Assembly (NCBI RefSeq): GCF_026625605.1
Contig: NZ_CP113054.1
Span: 4,836,001-4,900,000 of the forward strand
Direction: 5' to 3'
DNA: 64,000 nucleotides
Source: Luteolibacter sp. SL250
GTDB taxonomy: Bacteria > Verrucomicrobiota > Verrucomicrobiia > Verrucomicrobiales > Akkermansiaceae
Part shown: one piece after another, positions 25,837-33,974 of the stretch
Position numbering within the stretch: the stretch's first letter is position 1
How the letters are laid out: each line of letters begins with the position of its first letter
Position numbers and translations under genes: made by a program
Notes under the pieces: generated by a model
The model's input: the letters and a program-made list of their open reading frames with translations, nothing else
Databases searched by the model: none
What the model was told of the DNA's origin: nothing

Positions 25837-26985
25837 TCAGGCCTTCCGGCGGAACTCGGTCGGTGTTTTACCGGTATGGCGTCTGAACGTCTTGCACATC
25901 TGCGAGGCCGAAGGCCAGCCACACGCCGCCGCAATGTCCGGTGTCGCCTGCCGGGTCTCCACCAGCAGGGCGCACGCCCTTGCCACCCGCACCCGGTCGA
26001 TCTGCTGTTGCAGTGTCAGCCCGAACGCGCTCTTGAAGCCTGTTTCCAACGCGCGCCGCGACATATGAACCTCTTGGAGAAGCTCGGCCACCGTGAGCCA
26101 TTCGCAGGCACGCTCACGGATGATGAGAAGCGCGCGGCGCAACCGTGGATCCTCCACGGCCAGGGAGTCGGTGGAACGGCGCTCAACCACCGCCTTCGGA
26201 TGGATCAGCAATCTCCGCCGGTTCTCCGGCAACGGTTCCTGGAGGATGAGCTTCAACAAACCGGAGGCCTGGAGGCCCATCTCCTGGGTATTGATATCGA
26301 TGCTGGAAAGCGCGGGATGGGTGAGCTCGCACGCAAGCTCGTTGTTATCGACACCGAGCACCACCAGATCCTCGGGAACCGCCCGCCCGATGGCACGGAT
26401 CTCCCGCAACGCCATCACGCCGGTGGCATCGTTCGCCGCCAGGAGCGCGGTTCGGGGAGGAAGCAAACTGAGCCATCTCACCAATTCCTCTCTTGGCAGC
26501 GTTCCGTCCGGCGCATGGGGTGGCAGCGTCACACGCAGTCCGTGGGCGGTGGCGGCATCCCGGAAGCCCTGCAACCGGAGATCCGAATACGGCCGCCCGG
26601 GGCTGCCCAGAAACGCCAGATGACGGAACCCCCTGGCGTGATAGAACGAGAACGCCATCCTCCCCACTCCGTTGTTGTCCGTGGATACGCCACCCCAATG
26701 GGAACCGGCCAGTGGACGGGTGCCACTGGCCACGGTGACAAGGACCTTCACCTTCAGGCGGCAGAGTTCCATGAGAGCCGGGTCCCGGACTTCAGCGATC
26801 ACCGCGTCGACCTGCGCCTGGAGCAGATCCTCCAATCCGGCCGCTGACGGAGGACCACCATCAATCAGTTCCCAGGATGGCTGGTATTTCCCGTAGTTGA
26901 TGATCCCCCTCAGGATCGACCGACCATAGCCCGTCTCCTGGTGGAGGAGCAGCCCAATGCGGACGACCCGGGCGATTTGGCTCAT
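25837..26985 (-). CDS. XylR-like transcriptional regulator (LacI-type sensor plus AraC HTH)
   Basis: 382 aa. Residues 8-265 form a periplasmic-binding-protein-like sugar sensor (RIGLLLHQETGYGRSILRGI, GVSTDNNGVGRMAFSFYHARGFRHLAFLG, VVLGVDNNELACELTHPALSSID). Residues 280-382 carry two AraC-type HTH motifs (WLTVAELLQEVHMSRRALE, ATPDIAAACGWPSASQMCKTFRRHTGKTPTEFR). This two-part layout defines the XylR family, which activates xylose and other sugar genes. It is transcribed away from the M14/glycosidase/hydrolase operon and is the obvious candidate to control it from the 154-bp intergenic region. The effector sugar is unknown. Confidence 0.9.
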   Translation of the reverse strand: MSQIARVVRIGLLLHQETGYGRSILRGIINYGKYQPSWELIDGGPPSAAGLEDLLQAQVDAVIAEVRDPALMELCRLKVKVLVTVASGTRPLAGSHWGGVSTDNNGVGRMAFSFYHARGFRHLAFLGSPGRPYSDLRLQGFRDAATAHGLRVTLPPHAPDGTLPREELVRWLSLLPPRTALLAANDATGVMALREIRAIGRAVPEDLVVLGVDNNELACELTHPALSSIDINTQEMGLQASGLLKLILQEPLPENRRRLLIHPKAVVERRSTDSLAVEDPRLRRALLIIRERACEWLTVAELLQEVHMSRRALETGFKSAFGLTLQQQIDRVRVARACALLVETRQATPDIAAACGWPSASQMCKTFRRHTGKTPTEFRRKA

Positions 26986-27139: not shown

Positions 27140-29566
27140 ATGAAAGCCCTCCGGATCCTATCGATGGCCCTGCTCACAGGGGCCGCCCCCCTGCATGCGG
27201 AAACCGTGATCTACCGGCACGACTTCGGCGGTTCCTCCACCAGGAACCTTGCCGGAACGGCCGTCGAAACGTCATCAGAACAACTGGGAGGCACCAGCGG
27301 AGCCGAATGGACCGGTTCCGCCGTGTTCAGGGCGGATGGCAGCTTCACGCTCGGTGGAGGGGACTCATCGGCGAATGTACCGTTCCGTCCCGTTGATGGC
27401 TATCTTTACACCATCTCCGTTGAGACAACCGCAGCGGCGGTCGCCACCAATCCGACCACCTCCCTTTCCTACGTGGGGGTCGCACTCTACAACGGCGAAA
27501 CCGCCCCGAGCAACAGCCTCGCGGTCGGCAGCCAACGCGTCATCGCCCCCATCACCCGGAGTCCGGACAACACGCCGAACGCTTCCAGCGCGGCCGGACC
27601 ATTCAACATCCTCCGCCGCTGGCACCGGGACACGCCCCACACCACCGGCACCTCCCTCACCCAAAACCATCTGGCATCCGTGGGGACCAACGCCGGAACC
27701 TGGAGGCTCTCCATCCAGTTGGACACCTCCACCCCCGGCAACTGGAAATACCGCTGGCTGGTGGAAGATGTGGCGACCTCCACGGTATTGTCCCGGAGCC
27801 ACGCCGATGGCGCGACGTGGCCGTCGGTCGGATCCCTCACGGCATACCCCATCAATCGCATCCTCCTGTGCAAGGTGGGGCCGTTCAGTTCCGGCGCGTT
27901 CGACAACTTCCTGGTTTCCGCGACGCCGAAGCAGGACGACACGGGAGGAGGCATCACCCATCCGGAACCCGTGGTGATCGACCGCGATTTTCCCGGGGGG
28001 AACATCCGGGTGACGGCCCTCACCCAGCAATCACACGCCAGCCCGCGGAAAGCGTTCCTCGACCGGGAACTCCGCCCGGAGGACCGCGACTGGTTCTACT
28101 GGAGCTTTCGTACCCGGGACACCACCGGCTTCACCGCGGTCTTCAGCGACCGTGACCAGCTCGGCCCGCGCGGGGCGGCGGTCAGCCATGACGGCGGGGC
28201 CACCTGGTCCCACCTTGGCGGGGCCAGCGTGGTGCAACAGAACATCGGTGGGGTGGACCACTGGACATTCGAAGTCCCTCCGGTCGAGGCAGGGAAGGAA
28301 GTCCGTTACTCGTTCAGCGCCCACTACCTGCAGAGTCACCTCGAAACATGGCTATCGGCACATGCGGGAAACCCTCATGTCGACGTGTCCGAACTCTGCC
28401 GCAGCCGGAAGGACCGCAGCGTGGAGCTGGTGAGAGTGGGACGTCCGCTTTCAGCGGCATCGTCGGAAATCATCTTCCTGACCGGCCGCCACCACTGCTG
28501 CGAGACGTGCGCGAGCTACGTGATGGAGGGGATCCTCGATGCCGGACTGGCGGACGATGACATCGGGAAACAGTTGCGGAAAAGAACCCTTCTCGCGGTG
28601 CCCTTCGTGGACAAGGACGGGGTGGAGGAAGGGGATCAGGGAAAGGACCGCATCCCCCATGACCACAACCGTGACTACGGCCCCACCCCGATCTATCCGG
28701 AGGTTTCGGGGATCAAACGGTTCGGGACGGAGCACGGCAGGAGAGTGGTCACTTTCCTGGACCTGCACTGCCCGGTCGTCCATGGCACCTGGGACAAGCG
28801 GCTGCATTTCTACGAGTCGTCGGACACGCGGCACGCCGGGAATCTGCATGCCTTCATCTCCGTCCTGATGAACACCCGCACCGGCGAGATTCCGCTGCAG
28901 GCCGACGATTTCCTCGCCTACGGCGGGTCCAACAACAGCGGCAACTACAGTGACAGGTCGAGGGGATGGGCGGAGACCGCCTTCCCGGATGCACGGCTCA
29001 TCAGCACGCTGGAGATCCCTTACGCTGAGGTCCGGGGTGTGGAACTCACCGTCGCCCGGGCGCGTAATCTGGGCAGGGACATCGCCCGCGCGCTCGTCGC
29101 CCACCTTCCACCGGTGGAGGTCACCGGCGGTCAGCTCTGGCGGGAACTGGCCTTCGGCGCGGACGCGGAAAACCCTGCGGTCGGAGGTTGGCTGGCGGAT
29201 CCGGACCACGACGGGATCACCAACATCATCGAGTATGCATTCAATCTGCCTGCCTCCGGACCGGTAGCTCCGGCGGGGAGTGGCGCCGCCGTTTCCGGGA
29301 TCCCATCCGTGGGCATCACGCGCGACTCCGGCAACCCTGGCCTCCGTCTCGAATACCTGCGGCGCAAGTCCACGTCGGACCCGGGAGTGAGCTACACGCC
29401 CGAGGTTTCCGAGAACCTCAGCTCGTCAGGTGAGGAAGGCTGGAGGCCCGCCACCGGGCCGGAAGATGTCACGAGCATCGACAGCACCTGGGAACGGGTC
29501 TCCGTCCAACTGCCTGCGGACAAACCAGCCCGCTTCGCCCGGGTACGGGTGACTACCATCCCCTGA
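27140..29566 (+). CDS. Secreted protein with M14 metallopeptidase-like domain
   Basis: 808 aa with a signal peptide (MKALRILSMALLTGAAPLHAE). Residues ~22-260 are a beta-rich domain (IYRHDFGGSSTRNLAG ... AFDNFLVSATP), also present in the next gene. A second beta region follows. Residues ~420-660 are an M14-type domain: zinc ligands His452 and Glu455 (RHHCCET), DHNRDYG, second zinc His543 (DLHCPVVHG), and catalytic-type Glu625 (STLEIPY). All expected residues are present, so it is likely active as a carboxypeptidase or, as in several exported M14 branches, an amidase/deacylase. The C-terminus (~686-808) has the verrucomicrobial DPDHDGITNIIEYAFN module. First gene of the putative XylR-controlled operon. 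Confidence 0.82.
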   Translation: MKALRILSMALLTGAAPLHAETVIYRHDFGGSSTRNLAGTAVETSSEQLGGTSGAEWTGSAVFRADGSFTLGGGDSSANVPFRPVDGYLYTISVETTAAAVATNPTTSLSYVGVALYNGETAPSNSLAVGSQRVIAPITRSPDNTPNASSAAGPFNILRRWHRDTPHTTGTSLTQNHLASVGTNAGTWRLSIQLDTSTPGNWKYRWLVEDVATSTVLSRSHADGATWPSVGSLTAYPINRILLCKVGPFSSGAFDNFLVSATPKQDDTGGGITHPEPVVIDRDFPGGNIRVTALTQQSHASPRKAFLDRELRPEDRDWFYWSFRTRDTTGFTAVFSDRDQLGPRGAAVSHDGGATWSHLGGASVVQQNIGGVDHWTFEVPPVEAGKEVRYSFSAHYLQSHLETWLSAHAGNPHVDVSELCRSRKDRSVELVRVGRPLSAASSEIIFLTGRHHCCETCASYVMEGILDAGLADDDIGKQLRKRTLLAVPFVDKDGVEEGDQGKDRIPHDHNRDYGPTPIYPEVSGIKRFGTEHGRRVVTFLDLHCPVVHGTWDKRLHFYESSDTRHAGNLHAFISVLMNTRTGEIPLQADDFLAYGGSNNSGNYSDRSRGWAETAFPDARLISTLEIPYAEVRGVELTVARARNLGRDIARALVAHLPPVEVTGGQLWRELAFGADAENPAVGGWLADPDHDGITNIIEYAFNLPASGPVAPAGSGAAVSGIPSVGITRDSGNPGLRLEYLRRKSTSDPGVSYTPEVSENLSSSGEEGWRPATGPEDVTSIDSTWERVSVQLPADKPARFARVRVTTIP

Positions 29567-29604: not shown

Positions 29605-32600
29605 ATGTCACCGCATCCAAACCCCTCCCTGAAATGGATCTGGCTCCTCCCTGTCATTCTCACGATACCGGTCGTGGAAGCCGCAAGTGTGATCTACGAA
29701 CATAGCTTCTCCGGATCTTCCACCGCCAACCTGGGCGGCACCTCCCTCGATGCCTCCGCCACCGGGATGGGTGGCACCTCCGGCGCCAGGTGGATTTCCT
29801 CCACCCGCTTCAAGGCGGACGGGAGCATCGCCACCACGGACTCGGCGGGATCGGCGTTTGTCGCGTTCTCGCCCCAGAACGGCAACATCTACTCCATCTC
29901 CGTGGATACGAGGGCAACGCCCCGTGCAACGACTCCCGCGAGCCACCTGGCTTACGTCGGCATCTCCCTGAACAGCCACGTGGGGGCCACGCCGGACACT
30001 GCCGCGCCTTTCAGCTCCGGCCACAGATCCATTTCACCGATCGCAAGGAGTCCGGACGGCACACCCAACGCCAGCAACACCACCAACCCGAAGTACATTC
30101 TCCGCCGTTGGGAAACCAGCGCCACCTACATCCTGGCGGCGGATCACATTCCCACCCTGGCACTGGACCAGGGCGTCTGGCGGCTGACGATCGAGCTTGA
30201 TACCACCAATGCCGGAAACTGGCAGTACCGCTGGCTGGTGGATGACGTCAACGGTTCCACCCTCACCTCCCTGAGCGTCGGAGACTGGACCTCGTTCGCC
30301 ACACCCACACCTGCCATCTCCTACATCCAGCTCTTCAATACGGGGCAGCTCGGATCAGGCTCCTTCGACAACTTCAGCGTCACCGCAGTGCCGGAGCCAG
30401 CCACCGGAGTCCTTGCCGTAGCCGCCCTCGCGGCATTCGCCCTGAAACGAAAACGGACAGCCCGCAGGACCACCATGAAGGTCCTGCCAGCCGTGCTCTG
30501 CTGCTCGATGCCGCTGGTGGCGCGCGCTTCCGCAGAAGACCACTATGAAGCCTACGTCCGGAATTCGGAAGACTTCCGGCGGGTGAAGCAGGACAAGGAA
30601 TGGGCTCTCAAAGCGTGGCCATCATGGACCTACATGCCGTGGACCTACCAATGGCACATCGGCTATGATGATGCCTCCGGTGAGTGGAGCCGCACCCATG
30701 GCTACAATGGAACCCTGATGGACCAAGGCCACCTGCTCCAGGAAGCCACCAGGAAGGGAAGACTCGACTGGATCGACAAACACGGCCTCCGCTTTTACCT
30801 GGACCACACGGCGGGAAAGGGGGTGCTGCACCTGTGGGACGGGGACAAGGTGAAGCCGCATCTGGAACAGTTGCAGGGTACGGGAGTCCGGAACGTGCCC
30901 CTGAACGCCGCGGCGGAAGCCGGGCTGCGGGACATCATGAAGCGCCATATTGGAGCGGTCCGCGACTCGCCCCACCGCGCCGCCTACGCGCTGGATGACG
31001 AGCCGTCCTGGGGACACTTCGTGCGTCCGGCGATGTGGCAGATCACCGACGACCCCACCGCCTACACCCAATGGCTGCGCGGCATCTACGGCCCCAAGGC
31101 GCCGGAGCGCGGGAAATGGCTGAGCTATGATGACATCCGCACCAAGCTGCCGGAATGGACCATCGCCGATTTCGACGCCAGCCCGCTGATGGACCAGTGG
31201 AGTTTCAACGACTCCTACTGGGCGAACCTTCTCGGCAGGCTGGTCGAATACTCGAACGAACTGGACCCGGCGACGCCCTGCGGCCTTGTCGGCGGGCAGG
31301 CCCCGAATGCCTTCGGCGGCTATGACTATGCCAAGCTGATGCGGAAGATGCAGTTCATCGAGAGCTACAACATCGGCTCGTCCCAAGCGATCATCCGGTC
31401 CTTCAACCCGCGGAACTCGCTGCCCACGGTGACGACCCACTTCCACCGCGACACTGCCGACACCATCTGGCAGGCTTGGTATTACCTCGCCCATGGGAAC
31501 CGCGGACACATCGGCTGGGTGGAGAAATGGTTCGATGGGAAGACTCCGGAGCCCTGGCATGCGGAGGTGGCTCCCTCCTATCTGGAGGCGGAGCGGAAAA
31601 TCGGCCCGCTGATGGCTGGCGCGGAGTGGAAGCACGATGGGGTGGCGATCTACTACAGCCACGCCTCCATCCAGCTGGGCTGGATCCTCGATGCGGAGTC
31701 GCACGGAAAGACCTGGCGGCAGCGGAACTCGGACGAGCGCCTGAGCAGCGCCGCCCACGTCCGGAAGGCCTGGGAAAACATGCTCCGGGATTCCGGCCTC
31801 CAGTACGATTTCATCAACTACGCGGACGTCATCCAGAAGGGGGTGCCACAGGATTACAAGGTCCTCATCCTTCCTGGGGTCCTCTGCCTTTCGGATTCGG
31901 AGGCGCGGGCGATCAGGACGTTCTGCGAGAAAGGCGGCACCGTCATCGCCGACTATCTTCCCGGACTGTGGGACCAGCACGGCAAGGGGCGCAAGGAAGG
32001 CGGAGTTCTGGACTCCATGTTCGGAGTGAGCCATTCACCGTCCCTGTCAGCGAAGGATATCTTCGGCGGAAAATATTGGGCTGAAGTGGACCAGGATACG
32101 AACTTCTCGTGGAAGGATTACGAAAGCTTCCTGACCAACAAAAACACTTCGGTGAAAGACGCGAGCGGGTTCCACAAGGCGGTGAGGGAGATGCCTGTCG
32201 GTCACGTCGCTTCAGCAGGAAAGGGAAAGGCTGTCATGATGAACCTTTCCCCCCAGTGGTACAACGCCCACCGCGAGGCGGGGCCGGAAAGGGCGGAAAA
32301 ACGTGAGGTTTTCATGAAACACGTCATGGCCGCCGGGGTGCAACCGTGGGTCCGCATCTCCAGTGACCAGGCCCCGGTCCATGGATATGAGATCACCTAC
32401 TGGAAGCAGTCCACGGATGGAAACCCACGGACGATCCTCTATGTCTGCTCCAATCCCGAGATCCGCGGGACTTCACTCGGCGGCGGCAACTCCGTCGGCC
32501 TGAAGTCAGACACCATCCCGGTCCGGCTGCAGTTCAACCAGACCAAGGAACAGGTCCGGGATGAACGCACCGGTGAGATGCTTGGCGATGGCAGGGAATT

Positions 32601-32655
32601 CCCCCTGCGGTGGAAACGGGATGAGGCCATCGTGATTTCGTTCGAAGGATTATGA
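29605..32655 (+). CDS. PEP-CTERM protein fused in frame to a GH42-like glycosidase
   Basis: 1016 codons without a stop. Part 1 (residues 1-290) is complete by itself: signal peptide (LLPVILTIPVVEAAS), the same beta-rich domain as the upstream M14 protein, and a PEP-CTERM signal (VPEPATG at 262-268, hydrophobic helix, LKRKR). Part 2 starts at Met291 (DNA 30475) with a second signal peptide (MKVLPAVLCCSMPLVARASA). A TIM-barrel glycosidase-like domain follows, with candidate acid/base Glu466 (ALDDEPSWG) and nucleophile Glu586 (QFIESYN), then a beta-galactosidase trimerisation-type domain (YKVLILPGVLCLSDSEARAIR). AGGA precedes ATG 30475 by 5 nt, so the second part may be an independent gene in the same frame whose predecessor lost its stop codon. 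Glycosidase substrate unknown. Confidence 0.8.
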   Translation: MSPHPNPSLKWIWLLPVILTIPVVEAASVIYEHSFSGSSTANLGGTSLDASATGMGGTSGARWISSTRFKADGSIATTDSAGSAFVAFSPQNGNIYSISVDTRATPRATTPASHLAYVGISLNSHVGATPDTAAPFSSGHRSISPIARSPDGTPNASNTTNPKYILRRWETSATYILAADHIPTLALDQGVWRLTIELDTTNAGNWQYRWLVDDVNGSTLTSLSVGDWTSFATPTPAISYIQLFNTGQLGSGSFDNFSVTAVPEPATGVLAVAALAAFALKRKRTARRTTMKVLPAVLCCSMPLVARASAEDHYEAYVRNSEDFRRVKQDKEWALKAWPSWTYMPWTYQWHIGYDDASGEWSRTHGYNGTLMDQGHLLQEATRKGRLDWIDKHGLRFYLDHTAGKGVLHLWDGDKVKPHLEQLQGTGVRNVPLNAAAEAGLRDIMKRHIGAVRDSPHRAAYALDDEPSWGHFVRPAMWQITDDPTAYTQWLRGIYGPKAPERGKWLSYDDIRTKLPEWTIADFDASPLMDQWSFNDSYWANLLGRLVEYSNELDPATPCGLVGGQAPNAFGGYDYAKLMRKMQFIESYNIGSSQAIIRSFNPRNSLPTVTTHFHRDTADTIWQAWYYLAHGNRGHIGWVEKWFDGKTPEPWHAEVAPSYLEAERKIGPLMAGAEWKHDGVAIYYSHASIQLGWILDAESHGKTWRQRNSDERLSSAAHVRKAWENMLRDSGLQYDFINYADVIQKGVPQDYKVLILPGVLCLSDSEARAIRTFCEKGGTVIADYLPGLWDQHGKGRKEGGVLDSMFGVSHSPSLSAKDIFGGKYWAEVDQDTNFSWKDYESFLTNKNTSVKDASGFHKAVREMPVGHVASAGKGKAVMMNLSPQWYNAHREAGPERAEKREVFMKHVMAAGVQPWVRISSDQAPVHGYEITYWKQSTDGNPRTILYVCSNPEIRGTSLGGGNSVGLKSDTIPVRLQFNQTKEQVRDERTGEMLGDGREFPLRWKRDEAIVISFEGL
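30475..32655 (+). CDS. Alternative independent start of the GH42-like glycosidase
   Basis: This is the in-frame ATG at 30475 inside the larger open frame. It begins an ordinary signal peptide followed by the glycosidase domain, giving 726 aa, a normal length for a GH42-like enzyme with its trimerisation domain. The sequence GCAGGACCACC just before it contains an AGGA ribosome-binding core at good spacing. If used, it would decouple the enzyme from the PEP-CTERM part. Entered as an alternative product, not as an additional gene. Confidence 0.5.
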   Translation: MKVLPAVLCCSMPLVARASAEDHYEAYVRNSEDFRRVKQDKEWALKAWPSWTYMPWTYQWHIGYDDASGEWSRTHGYNGTLMDQGHLLQEATRKGRLDWIDKHGLRFYLDHTAGKGVLHLWDGDKVKPHLEQLQGTGVRNVPLNAAAEAGLRDIMKRHIGAVRDSPHRAAYALDDEPSWGHFVRPAMWQITDDPTAYTQWLRGIYGPKAPERGKWLSYDDIRTKLPEWTIADFDASPLMDQWSFNDSYWANLLGRLVEYSNELDPATPCGLVGGQAPNAFGGYDYAKLMRKMQFIESYNIGSSQAIIRSFNPRNSLPTVTTHFHRDTADTIWQAWYYLAHGNRGHIGWVEKWFDGKTPEPWHAEVAPSYLEAERKIGPLMAGAEWKHDGVAIYYSHASIQLGWILDAESHGKTWRQRNSDERLSSAAHVRKAWENMLRDSGLQYDFINYADVIQKGVPQDYKVLILPGVLCLSDSEARAIRTFCEKGGTVIADYLPGLWDQHGKGRKEGGVLDSMFGVSHSPSLSAKDIFGGKYWAEVDQDTNFSWKDYESFLTNKNTSVKDASGFHKAVREMPVGHVASAGKGKAVMMNLSPQWYNAHREAGPERAEKREVFMKHVMAAGVQPWVRISSDQAPVHGYEITYWKQSTDGNPRTILYVCSNPEIRGTSLGGGNSVGLKSDTIPVRLQFNQTKEQVRDERTGEMLGDGREFPLRWKRDEAIVISFEGL

Positions 32656-33974
32656 ACCAACCGGACGATTCCACAGAGACTCATCCCGATCCGGAAACGC
32701 CCCAAGGGTGCGGCAGGCGTGAGTTCCTGAAACGCTCCGCGGGCATCCTGGCGGGACTGCCCGGGGTGGCCCCATTCCTTCCGCTCCATGGGGAGCAGGC
32801 ACACCCCTCCGCCATGCCTGGTGAAAGCAAAAGCATCATCGGCCACTATGGTTCCTGGGCGTCCAACCTCCGGCCTTCTCCTCCCACCCTGTCATTCCGG
32901 AATGCCCGTTGGACGGATCCCGCGGAGTGGCGGGTGCATGCACGGCATAAGGCCTGGGAATTGCTCGCTCCGCCGGACCAGGGCGGCGTTCCGCAGGCGC
33001 GGGTGGACCGTGCCTACGCCTACGACGGACTGACCGTGGAGGAACTGAGCTGGCAACTGCCCTACGGGCGGCGGACAAGCGCTGTCCTTCTCAAGCCCGC
33101 AGGCACCCGGGGACGCCTCCCGGCCATCCTTGCCCTCCACGACCATGGTGGGAACAAGTACTTCGGCGCGGGGAAGATCACCCGCACCGCCGCGGACATC
33201 CATCCCCTCCTCGCCGCGCATCAGGAAAAATACTACGGTGGGACCGCGTGGGCCAACGAGGCGGCCCGGAAGGGCTACGTCGTCCTGGTGCATGATGCCT
33301 TCGCATTCGGGAGCCGGCGTGTCCACTACGGGGATGTGGAAGGCATCCCGTGGGGGAACCTGAACGTCGCCGGCAGGCAAGAGCCCGATCCGCAGGATAT
33401 CAATGGCATCGACAACTACAATGCGTGGGCCTCCGACCATGAGAATGTCATGTCGAAATCCCTTTTCTGCGCGGGAACGACCTGGCCGGGCGTCACACTG
33501 GCGGAAGACCGGAGCGCCTTGGACATCCTTTCGGCACGGGAGGATGTCGACGCCGGCAGAATCGGCTGCGGCGGGCTCTCGGGTGGCGGGCTGAGGACGG
33601 TTTATCTCACGGGACTGGATGATCGCATCAACTGTGCGGTTTGCGTCGGCTTCATGTCCACTTGGGACGATTTCCTTTCCCGGAAGGCCTACACGCATAC
33701 CTGGATGGCCTATACCCCGCTGCTCTCCAACTACCTGGAATTTTCCGAGATCTTCGGCCTCCGGGTACCCGCCCCATTGATGGTCCTCAACAACAGGCAG
33801 GACCAGCTTTTCACGCTGGAGGAAATGGAGAAGGCGGACGCCATCCTGCGGGAGATCCATACGAAAGCCGGAGCCAGCGACCGCTTCAGGTCGGCCTTCC
33901 ATGACGGCCACCACAAATTCGATCCCGCCATGCAGAAGCAAGCGTCCGACTGGTTCGACCAATGGCTCAAATGA
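32652..33974 (+). CDS. Tat-exported alpha/beta hydrolase (acetylxylan-esterase/DLH-like)
   Basis: 440 aa. Starts with an ATGA overlap on the glycosidase stop. A twin-arginine signal is at GRREFLKRSAGILAGLPGVA. The alpha/beta hydrolase core shows PAILALHDHGGNKYFG (oxyanion region), nucleophile Ser in GCGGLSGGGLRT, an acid near NNRQDQLF, and His in HDGHHKF. A large insertion (AGKITRTAADIHPLLAAHQEKYYGG) is typical of carbohydrate esterases in polysaccharide loci. Likely removes acyl groups from a glycan handled by the neighbouring glycosidase; inferred from context. Last gene of the operon. Confidence 0.85.
   Translation: MNQPDDSTETHPDPETPQGCGRREFLKRSAGILAGLPGVAPFLPLHGEQAHPSAMPGESKSIIGHYGSWASNLRPSPPTLSFRNARWTDPAEWRVHARHKAWELLAPPDQGGVPQARVDRAYAYDGLTVEELSWQLPYGRRTSAVLLKPAGTRGRLPAILALHDHGGNKYFGAGKITRTAADIHPLLAAHQEKYYGGTAWANEAARKGYVVLVHDAFAFGSRRVHYGDVEGIPWGNLNVAGRQEPDPQDINGIDNYNAWASDHENVMSKSLFCAGTTWPGVTLAEDRSALDILSAREDVDAGRIGCGGLSGGGLRTVYLTGLDDRINCAVCVGFMSTWDDFLSRKAYTHTWMAYTPLLSNYLEFSEIFGLRVPAPLMVLNNRQDQLFTLEEMEKADAILREIHTKAGASDRFRSAFHDGHHKFDPAMQKQASDWFDQWLK

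Follow-up and report, generated by a model that had tools for sequence, protein, structure and literature searches.

Proteins sorted by the PEP-CTERM/exosortase system (TIGR02595/PF07589; EpsH/exosortase, TIGR02602 and TIGR04178) have an N-terminal signal peptide, a PEP triad followed by a helix and a basic tail, and an exosortase encoded in the same genome. Little is understood of how exosortases recognize and cleave their substrates, and a strictly C-terminal position is assumed for the signal. According to Haft et al. (2006), 87% of PEP-CTERM proteins have fewer than 10 residues after the signal (median three), and the very few with dramatically longer tails were suspected to be non-functional (PMC1569441). 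The protein described here is encoded in a 64,000-nucleotide stretch of the Luteolibacter sp. SL250 genome (the window, meaning the whole stretch that was analysed). It has all the features just listed but, unlike typical PEP-CTERM proteins, carries its signal 732 residues before the C-terminus.

Another close system is FbcH of Bradyrhizobium japonicum (gene fbcH), a cytochrome b/c1 precursor that signal peptidase cleaves at a signal peptide lying inside the chain. FbcH and the fused protein are alike in that a single chain has a transmembrane part and then an internal signal peptide before a periplasmic (here predicted) domain. Unlike FbcH, the fused protein has a preceding part that ends in an exosortase signal, and its cleavage is predicted. 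Literature searches for precursors of this sort in bacteria turned up only viral or irrelevant work. As to the enzyme half, GH42 beta-galactosidases and GH164 beta-mannosidases (Bs164, PMC7105311) share its trimerisation domain and overall fold class, and six separate homologues (L117-L122) are the same enzyme with its own leader, fused to nothing.

Our best explanation, to which we give a probability of about 0.5, is that two genes were fused and now specify one translated precursor, which would be threaded through the membrane out-in-out and have its enzyme freed by signal peptidase.

One reading frame with two export signals

The frame at 29605-32655 (+) is open throughout (1016 codons, zero internal stops). 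Its product begins with a signal peptide and a probably all-beta domain, continues with a PEP-CTERM signal, TARRTT and the stretch MKVLPAVLCCSMPLVARASA, and finishes with a 706-residue enzyme (Table 1). Translation bears out the coordinates and residues that the first-pass annotation gave for this frame: VPEP is at residue 262, with a hydrophobic stretch and LKRKR after it (30388-30456), Met291 (ATG at 30475) heads the second leader, and AGGA-CCACC-ATG is present in the DNA at that place. By inspection and hydropathy, signal peptide 1 has a hydrophobic core comparable to those of other signal peptides. MKVLPAVLCCSMPLVARASA leads into EDHYEAYVRN..., and its hydropathy lies within the span shown by the separate homologues' leaders. 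Because the next gene overlaps the fused gene (ATGA at 32652) and only 38 bases separate the end of the upstream gene from the fused start, the cluster looks like an operon; the divergent regulator is its probable, inferred controller.

Table 1. Features of the fused gene and its neighbours, in window coordinates
Feature	Position	Strand	Remarks
Divergent regulator, Peripla_BP_3 + AraC-type HTH	25837..26985	-	
Upstream gene: paralogous N-terminal domain without PEP-CTERM + peptidase-like domain	27140..29566	+	
Signal peptide 1	29605..29685	+	residues 1-27, MSPHPNPSLKWIWLLPVILTIPVVEAA; from sequence and hydropathy
N-terminal domain	29686..30384	+	~residues 28-260; family shared with separate PEP-CTERM proteins
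Internal PEP-CTERM signal VPEPATGVLAVAALAAFALKRKR	30388..30456	+	residues 262-284, VPEP...LKRKR
Junction TARRTT	30457..30474	+	basic; counterpart in G022 is NA
Second signal-peptide-like stretch MKVLPAVLCCSMPLVARASA	30475..30534	+	residues ~291-310; ancestral enzyme leader
Glycoside-hydrolase-like enzyme with GH42 trimerisation domain	30535..32655	+	residues 311-1016 + stop
Next gene: alpha/beta hydrolase (Peptidase_S9/AXE1-like)	32652..33974	+	start overlaps stop of fused gene (ATGA)

Identity of the two halves

The enzyme matches the GH42 trimerisation domain PF08532 (E=1.7e-9; 38.7 bits, cut-off 25.8), but a Pfam profile search found no match to the GH42 catalytic domain, and identity to GH42 and GH164 enzymes in structural alignments is only ~10-14%. 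The earlier label 'GH42-like enzyme' is therefore supported by the trimerisation domain and not by the catalytic one. In sequence profile searches the links to GH164 beta-mannosidase and to GH42 beta-galactosidases likewise run via the trimerisation domain. Foldseek lists both families over the full length (TM ~0.35) for a weak query model (pLDDT 53). Homologues of the enzyme share an invariant stretch, DDE(x)SWGHF, plus IGWV(E/Q), whose Glu varies; that these hold the acid/base and nucleophile glutamates is a guess. We classify the enzyme from its sequence as a predicted secreted glycosidase of the GH42 superfamily. The N-terminal domain has no Pfam match and is probably an all-beta sandwich, its model being all-beta with a pLDDT of 39, too poor for a structure search. 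Neither this model nor that of the enzyme is strong enough to speak to function.

The same fusion in a congener

The gene occurs in only two of 73 genomes of the genus. The only other holder of an orthologue is G022, a congener whose enzyme is 83% identical and whose frame is likewise unbroken and fused. The order there is a start, a shortened N-terminal domain, VPEPSSGLLGMIAFASLALKRKR, NA, the leader-like LKAWPLVACCSLSLMDRSEA and the enzyme; the codon aligned with the window start is TTG. About 137 residues of the N-terminal domain (~411 nt) are deleted in frame and the junction has a 12-nt in-frame gap, so both indels near the junction preserve the frame. Between LKRKR and MKVLP, where the first-pass annotation had proposed checking orthologues for a stop codon, G022 has none and the frame continues. 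An assembly error or a stop loss in a single strain is ruled out, since G022 has the same fusion; the two species were sequenced independently, and the fusion is real and inherited.

Downstream, the order with the alpha/beta hydrolase gene is conserved in G022; upstream of the fused gene, a transposase-like frame stands in place of the peptidase gene. Because these upstream surroundings differ, the junction common to both genomes did not come from recent copying of the entire region. Transposase-like frames flank the G022 fused gene and its neighbour (L023, 4541-5965 and 10024-10605), and the pair may sit on a mobile or rearranged segment.

Origin of the fusion

About 15 relatives (43-69% identity) have the enzyme as a protein by itself, in which a leader immediately precedes D(P/A/H)YE. 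The six named homologues (61-67% identity in the best segment; 62-68% in a second comparison, of L117-L122) are from Verrucomicrobiales, Prosthecobacter, Kiritimatiellia and Phycisphaerae; these and about ten further separate homologues in the order and phylum have their leader next to the DPYE(N/T)YVR start. In a tree of the enzyme the two fused proteins form a clade (support 100/100) among separate homologues. Elsewhere in both genomes the N-terminal part has its family in separate PEP-CTERM proteins: one G022 paralogue, for example, has 286 amino acids and ends LRRRR, and one in the window genome is a 275-codon frame. Identity of the N-terminal domain to its paralogues is 44-48% (~44% for the copy in the upstream gene). 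Because relatives carry both halves as separate proteins, the fusion is derived; the comparison places it in the ancestor that the window species shares with G022, the sorting signal of the first protein and the signal peptide of the second both being retained. There is a small residual chance that the two genomes acquired it in independent events, and this counts against our best explanation, only two fused genomes being known.

How were the two genes joined? The first-pass annotation had proposed a stop codon lost between them. Its view that two genes were fused holds, but a simple loss by one substitution is not visible and is rejected: in the window species none of the codons separating KRKR from ATG291 differs from a stop codon by a single change. 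An insertion or deletion, not a single substitution, is for that reason the probable cause. The peptidase-like part of the upstream gene (27140-29566) has a G022 relative that matches Peptidase_M14. Taken together, the genes show that the N-terminal domain family has been joined to enzymes on two or more occasions, in one case cleanly and in the other with retention of the signal, and suggest that it has been shuffled repeatedly by local recombination. In G022 a separate PEP-CTERM version adjoins a fusion of the N-terminal domain with a peptidase-like domain (L024; C3 855112-856917).

Position and rarity of the internal signal

A PEP triad, a hydrophobic helix and a cluster of basic residues are all present in the window species (VPEPATGVLAVAALAAFALKRKR) and in G022 (VPEPSSGLLGMIAFASLALKRKR), and 732 residues (729 in G022) follow a signal that is normally located at the extreme C-terminus. 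TIGR02595 gave 20.2 bits for the internal motif in a genome scan (cut-off 16). With hmmscan of the whole protein the motif scored 14.8-15.5 bits for TIGR02595 (cut-off 16) and 18.5 bits for PF07589 (cut-off 20.7), slightly under the curated cut-offs, which we count against our best explanation. The G022 motif scored 17.5 bits. Each genome has one exosortase gene (TIGR04178; 77 bits in the window genome, G000, and 75.5 bits in G022).

We read the tails after 190 TIGR02595 matches, 102 in the window genome (95 + 7) and 88 in G022. A long continuation after a credible motif was found only in the two fused proteins (732 and 729 residues); the remaining credible matches in both genomes have tails of at most 68 residues, nearly all of them at most five. 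All but two of the first 95 matches in the window genome have tails of 0-5 residues, the exceptions having 19 and 732, and the seven further matches comprise six with tails of 0-4 residues and one false match. A would-be second internal PEP-CTERM at 4373198 (166-codon tail) proved to be a false hit, a weak match without a proper motif. The G022 tails are mostly of five residues or fewer, with the orthologue as the single large exception and 68 as the next longest. Thus the 190 matches contain no other credible internal PEP-CTERM fusion in either genome. The match with 68 extra residues (L197; C1:1029037-1029108 of G022) is possibly frameshifted or has lost its stop. Another PEP-CTERM conserved in both species (L083, G000:C1:2823097-2823162; L211, G022:C1:807255-807320) has an unusual 19-residue extension that is alike in the two (SGATECMTNPLKTPINRGI and SGATACMMNPLNSPANRGI, respectively).

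An internal PEP-CTERM is thus exceptional within its own genome, though not wholly unprecedented. We know of no report of an internal PEP-CTERM that has an export signal behind it and is shared by different species. The broader claim that an internal signal is new needs correction, since Haft et al. (2006) had already noted long-tailed cases.

Selection on the parts

Between the window species and G022, whose synonymous divergence is ~1 or more, pN/pS is 0.16 for the enzyme, 0.22 for the N-terminal domain (over the part shared with G022), 0.36 (0.17-0.69) for the PEP-CTERM signal, 0.65 (CI 0.38-1.14) for the junction with the second leader and 0.85 for the first leader. These values, and the simulation below, presuppose that the genes fused once, before the two species split, and that a simple substitution model applies. 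The second leader is weakly constrained and also short, which counts against our best explanation; free evolution of a signal peptide is, however, to be expected while its hydrophobicity lasts. A neutral simulation, with no selection and with stops rejected, kept PEP motif, uncharged helix and basic tail jointly in at most 0.05% of runs and a second leader that was hydrophobic and free of charge in 4-8%. These values point to purifying selection on the PEP-CTERM signal since the split. They give no date for the G022 deletion, and part of the constraint may be older than it. Conservation of the frame together with purifying selection supports translation of the fused frame and its maintenance at the protein level.

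A different account would make the gene an accidental fusion in two sister species, tolerated as the enzyme is still exported, with the N-terminal part degrading. The ~137 residues missing from the G022 domain and the presence of the gene in just two genomes of the genus fit such decay; pN/pS values of 0.22 on the remaining N-terminal domain and 0.36 on the PEP-CTERM signal, and a frame preserved through two indels, do not, and we consider it very improbable. In G022 itself the N-terminal product may be decaying, most of the first domain being deleted. That product can hardly be functional there, a point that also weighs against the precursor that we favour.

Is the enzyme also made on its own? 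The first-pass annotation had suggested a free enzyme made via the internal AGGA-CCACC-ATG. On this account ATG 30475 would be the main start in the window species, with the fusion a read-through by-product. Met291 does head a normal leader, AGGA lies five bases upstream, and the separate homologues begin at the corresponding place. However, G022 retains the leader without Met291 or AGGA (a CTG aligns with the ATG, and AGGA was lost within the 12-nt deletion), and the N-terminal part is under purifying selection in the enzyme's frame. Initiation at this codon is therefore not conserved between the two species. A Shine-Dalgarno-like 4-mer precedes five of 37 putative starts in the window and six of 35 PEP-CTERM gene starts, compared with 13.6% of internal in-frame ATGs by chance. 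The window genome hardly uses Shine-Dalgarno motifs, and some Verrucomicrobia are listed as scarce in them (PMC10783764). In a genome so poor in these motifs AGGA is uninformative and does not argue for a start. For G022, initiation at a codon other than ATG, the TTG within LALKRKR, is conceivable but unsupported. The motif itself is real, but the proposal is weakened and we judge it improbable.

Predicted topology and processing

In the favoured single precursor, signal peptide 1 would start export of the N-terminal part, and transfer would stop at the PEP-CTERM helix and the basic KRKR tail behind it. The second hydrophobic stretch would then re-enter the translocon, the chain crossing the membrane out-in-out, and the enzyme would end outside the cytoplasm. 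Signal peptidase I would cut after ASA (SEA in G022) and release it. The PEP-CTERM of the N-terminal part could still serve as an exosortase substrate, and of all the steps this cut is the one least certain to happen. The first product in G022 would perhaps be only a targeting stub, the core of the domain being mostly lost. In both species a strongly basic loop separates the two hydrophobic stretches (KRKRTARRTTMK in the window species; KRKRNALK in G022), so that by the positive-inside rule it is predicted to lie on the cytoplasmic side. Candidate signal peptidase sites close the second stretch (ASA/ED in the window species, SEA/AD in G022), and a single open frame with an internal leader is conserved across the two species.

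The main rival is a single chain that is never cut: the PEP-CTERM helix and the second stretch would form a membrane hairpin, neither signal would be processed, and the enzyme would be anchored in the inner membrane facing the periplasm. Such a hairpin accords with the basic loop in both species, with the weak constraint on the second leader, of which hydrophobicity alone may matter, and with the suspicion that internal PEP-CTERM signals are non-functional (Haft et al. 2006, PMC1569441). A hairpin has no need of the VPEP triad, yet both species keep it where neutral drift almost always loses it, and plausible signal peptidase sites persist in both as well. We regard the uncut chain as unlikely.

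Processing of one precursor by both exosortase and signal peptidase, as the first-pass annotation had also proposed, is compatible with the data and, because both signals persist in the two species and the PEP-CTERM is under purifying selection, is favoured here, with both cuts predicted. The more specific version, in which exosortase and signal peptidase I would cut either side of a short membrane hairpin, so that a single round of translation gives a PEP-CTERM surface protein and a secreted glycosidase in equal amounts, is held tentatively and at well under an even chance.

Significance

The fusion is real, conserved and unusual; its consequence for exosortase processing is testable but unproven. 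A conserved internal PEP-CTERM with an export signal after it offers a natural means of testing if a free C-terminus is required by exosortase, and also if bacteria make exported polyproteins by such a route. If the precursor is indeed cut twice, the exosortase signal need not be C-terminal. If the signals are mere relics, the fused protein would still illustrate how secreted enzymes gain the domains of surface proteins by fusion, with the sorting signals intact.
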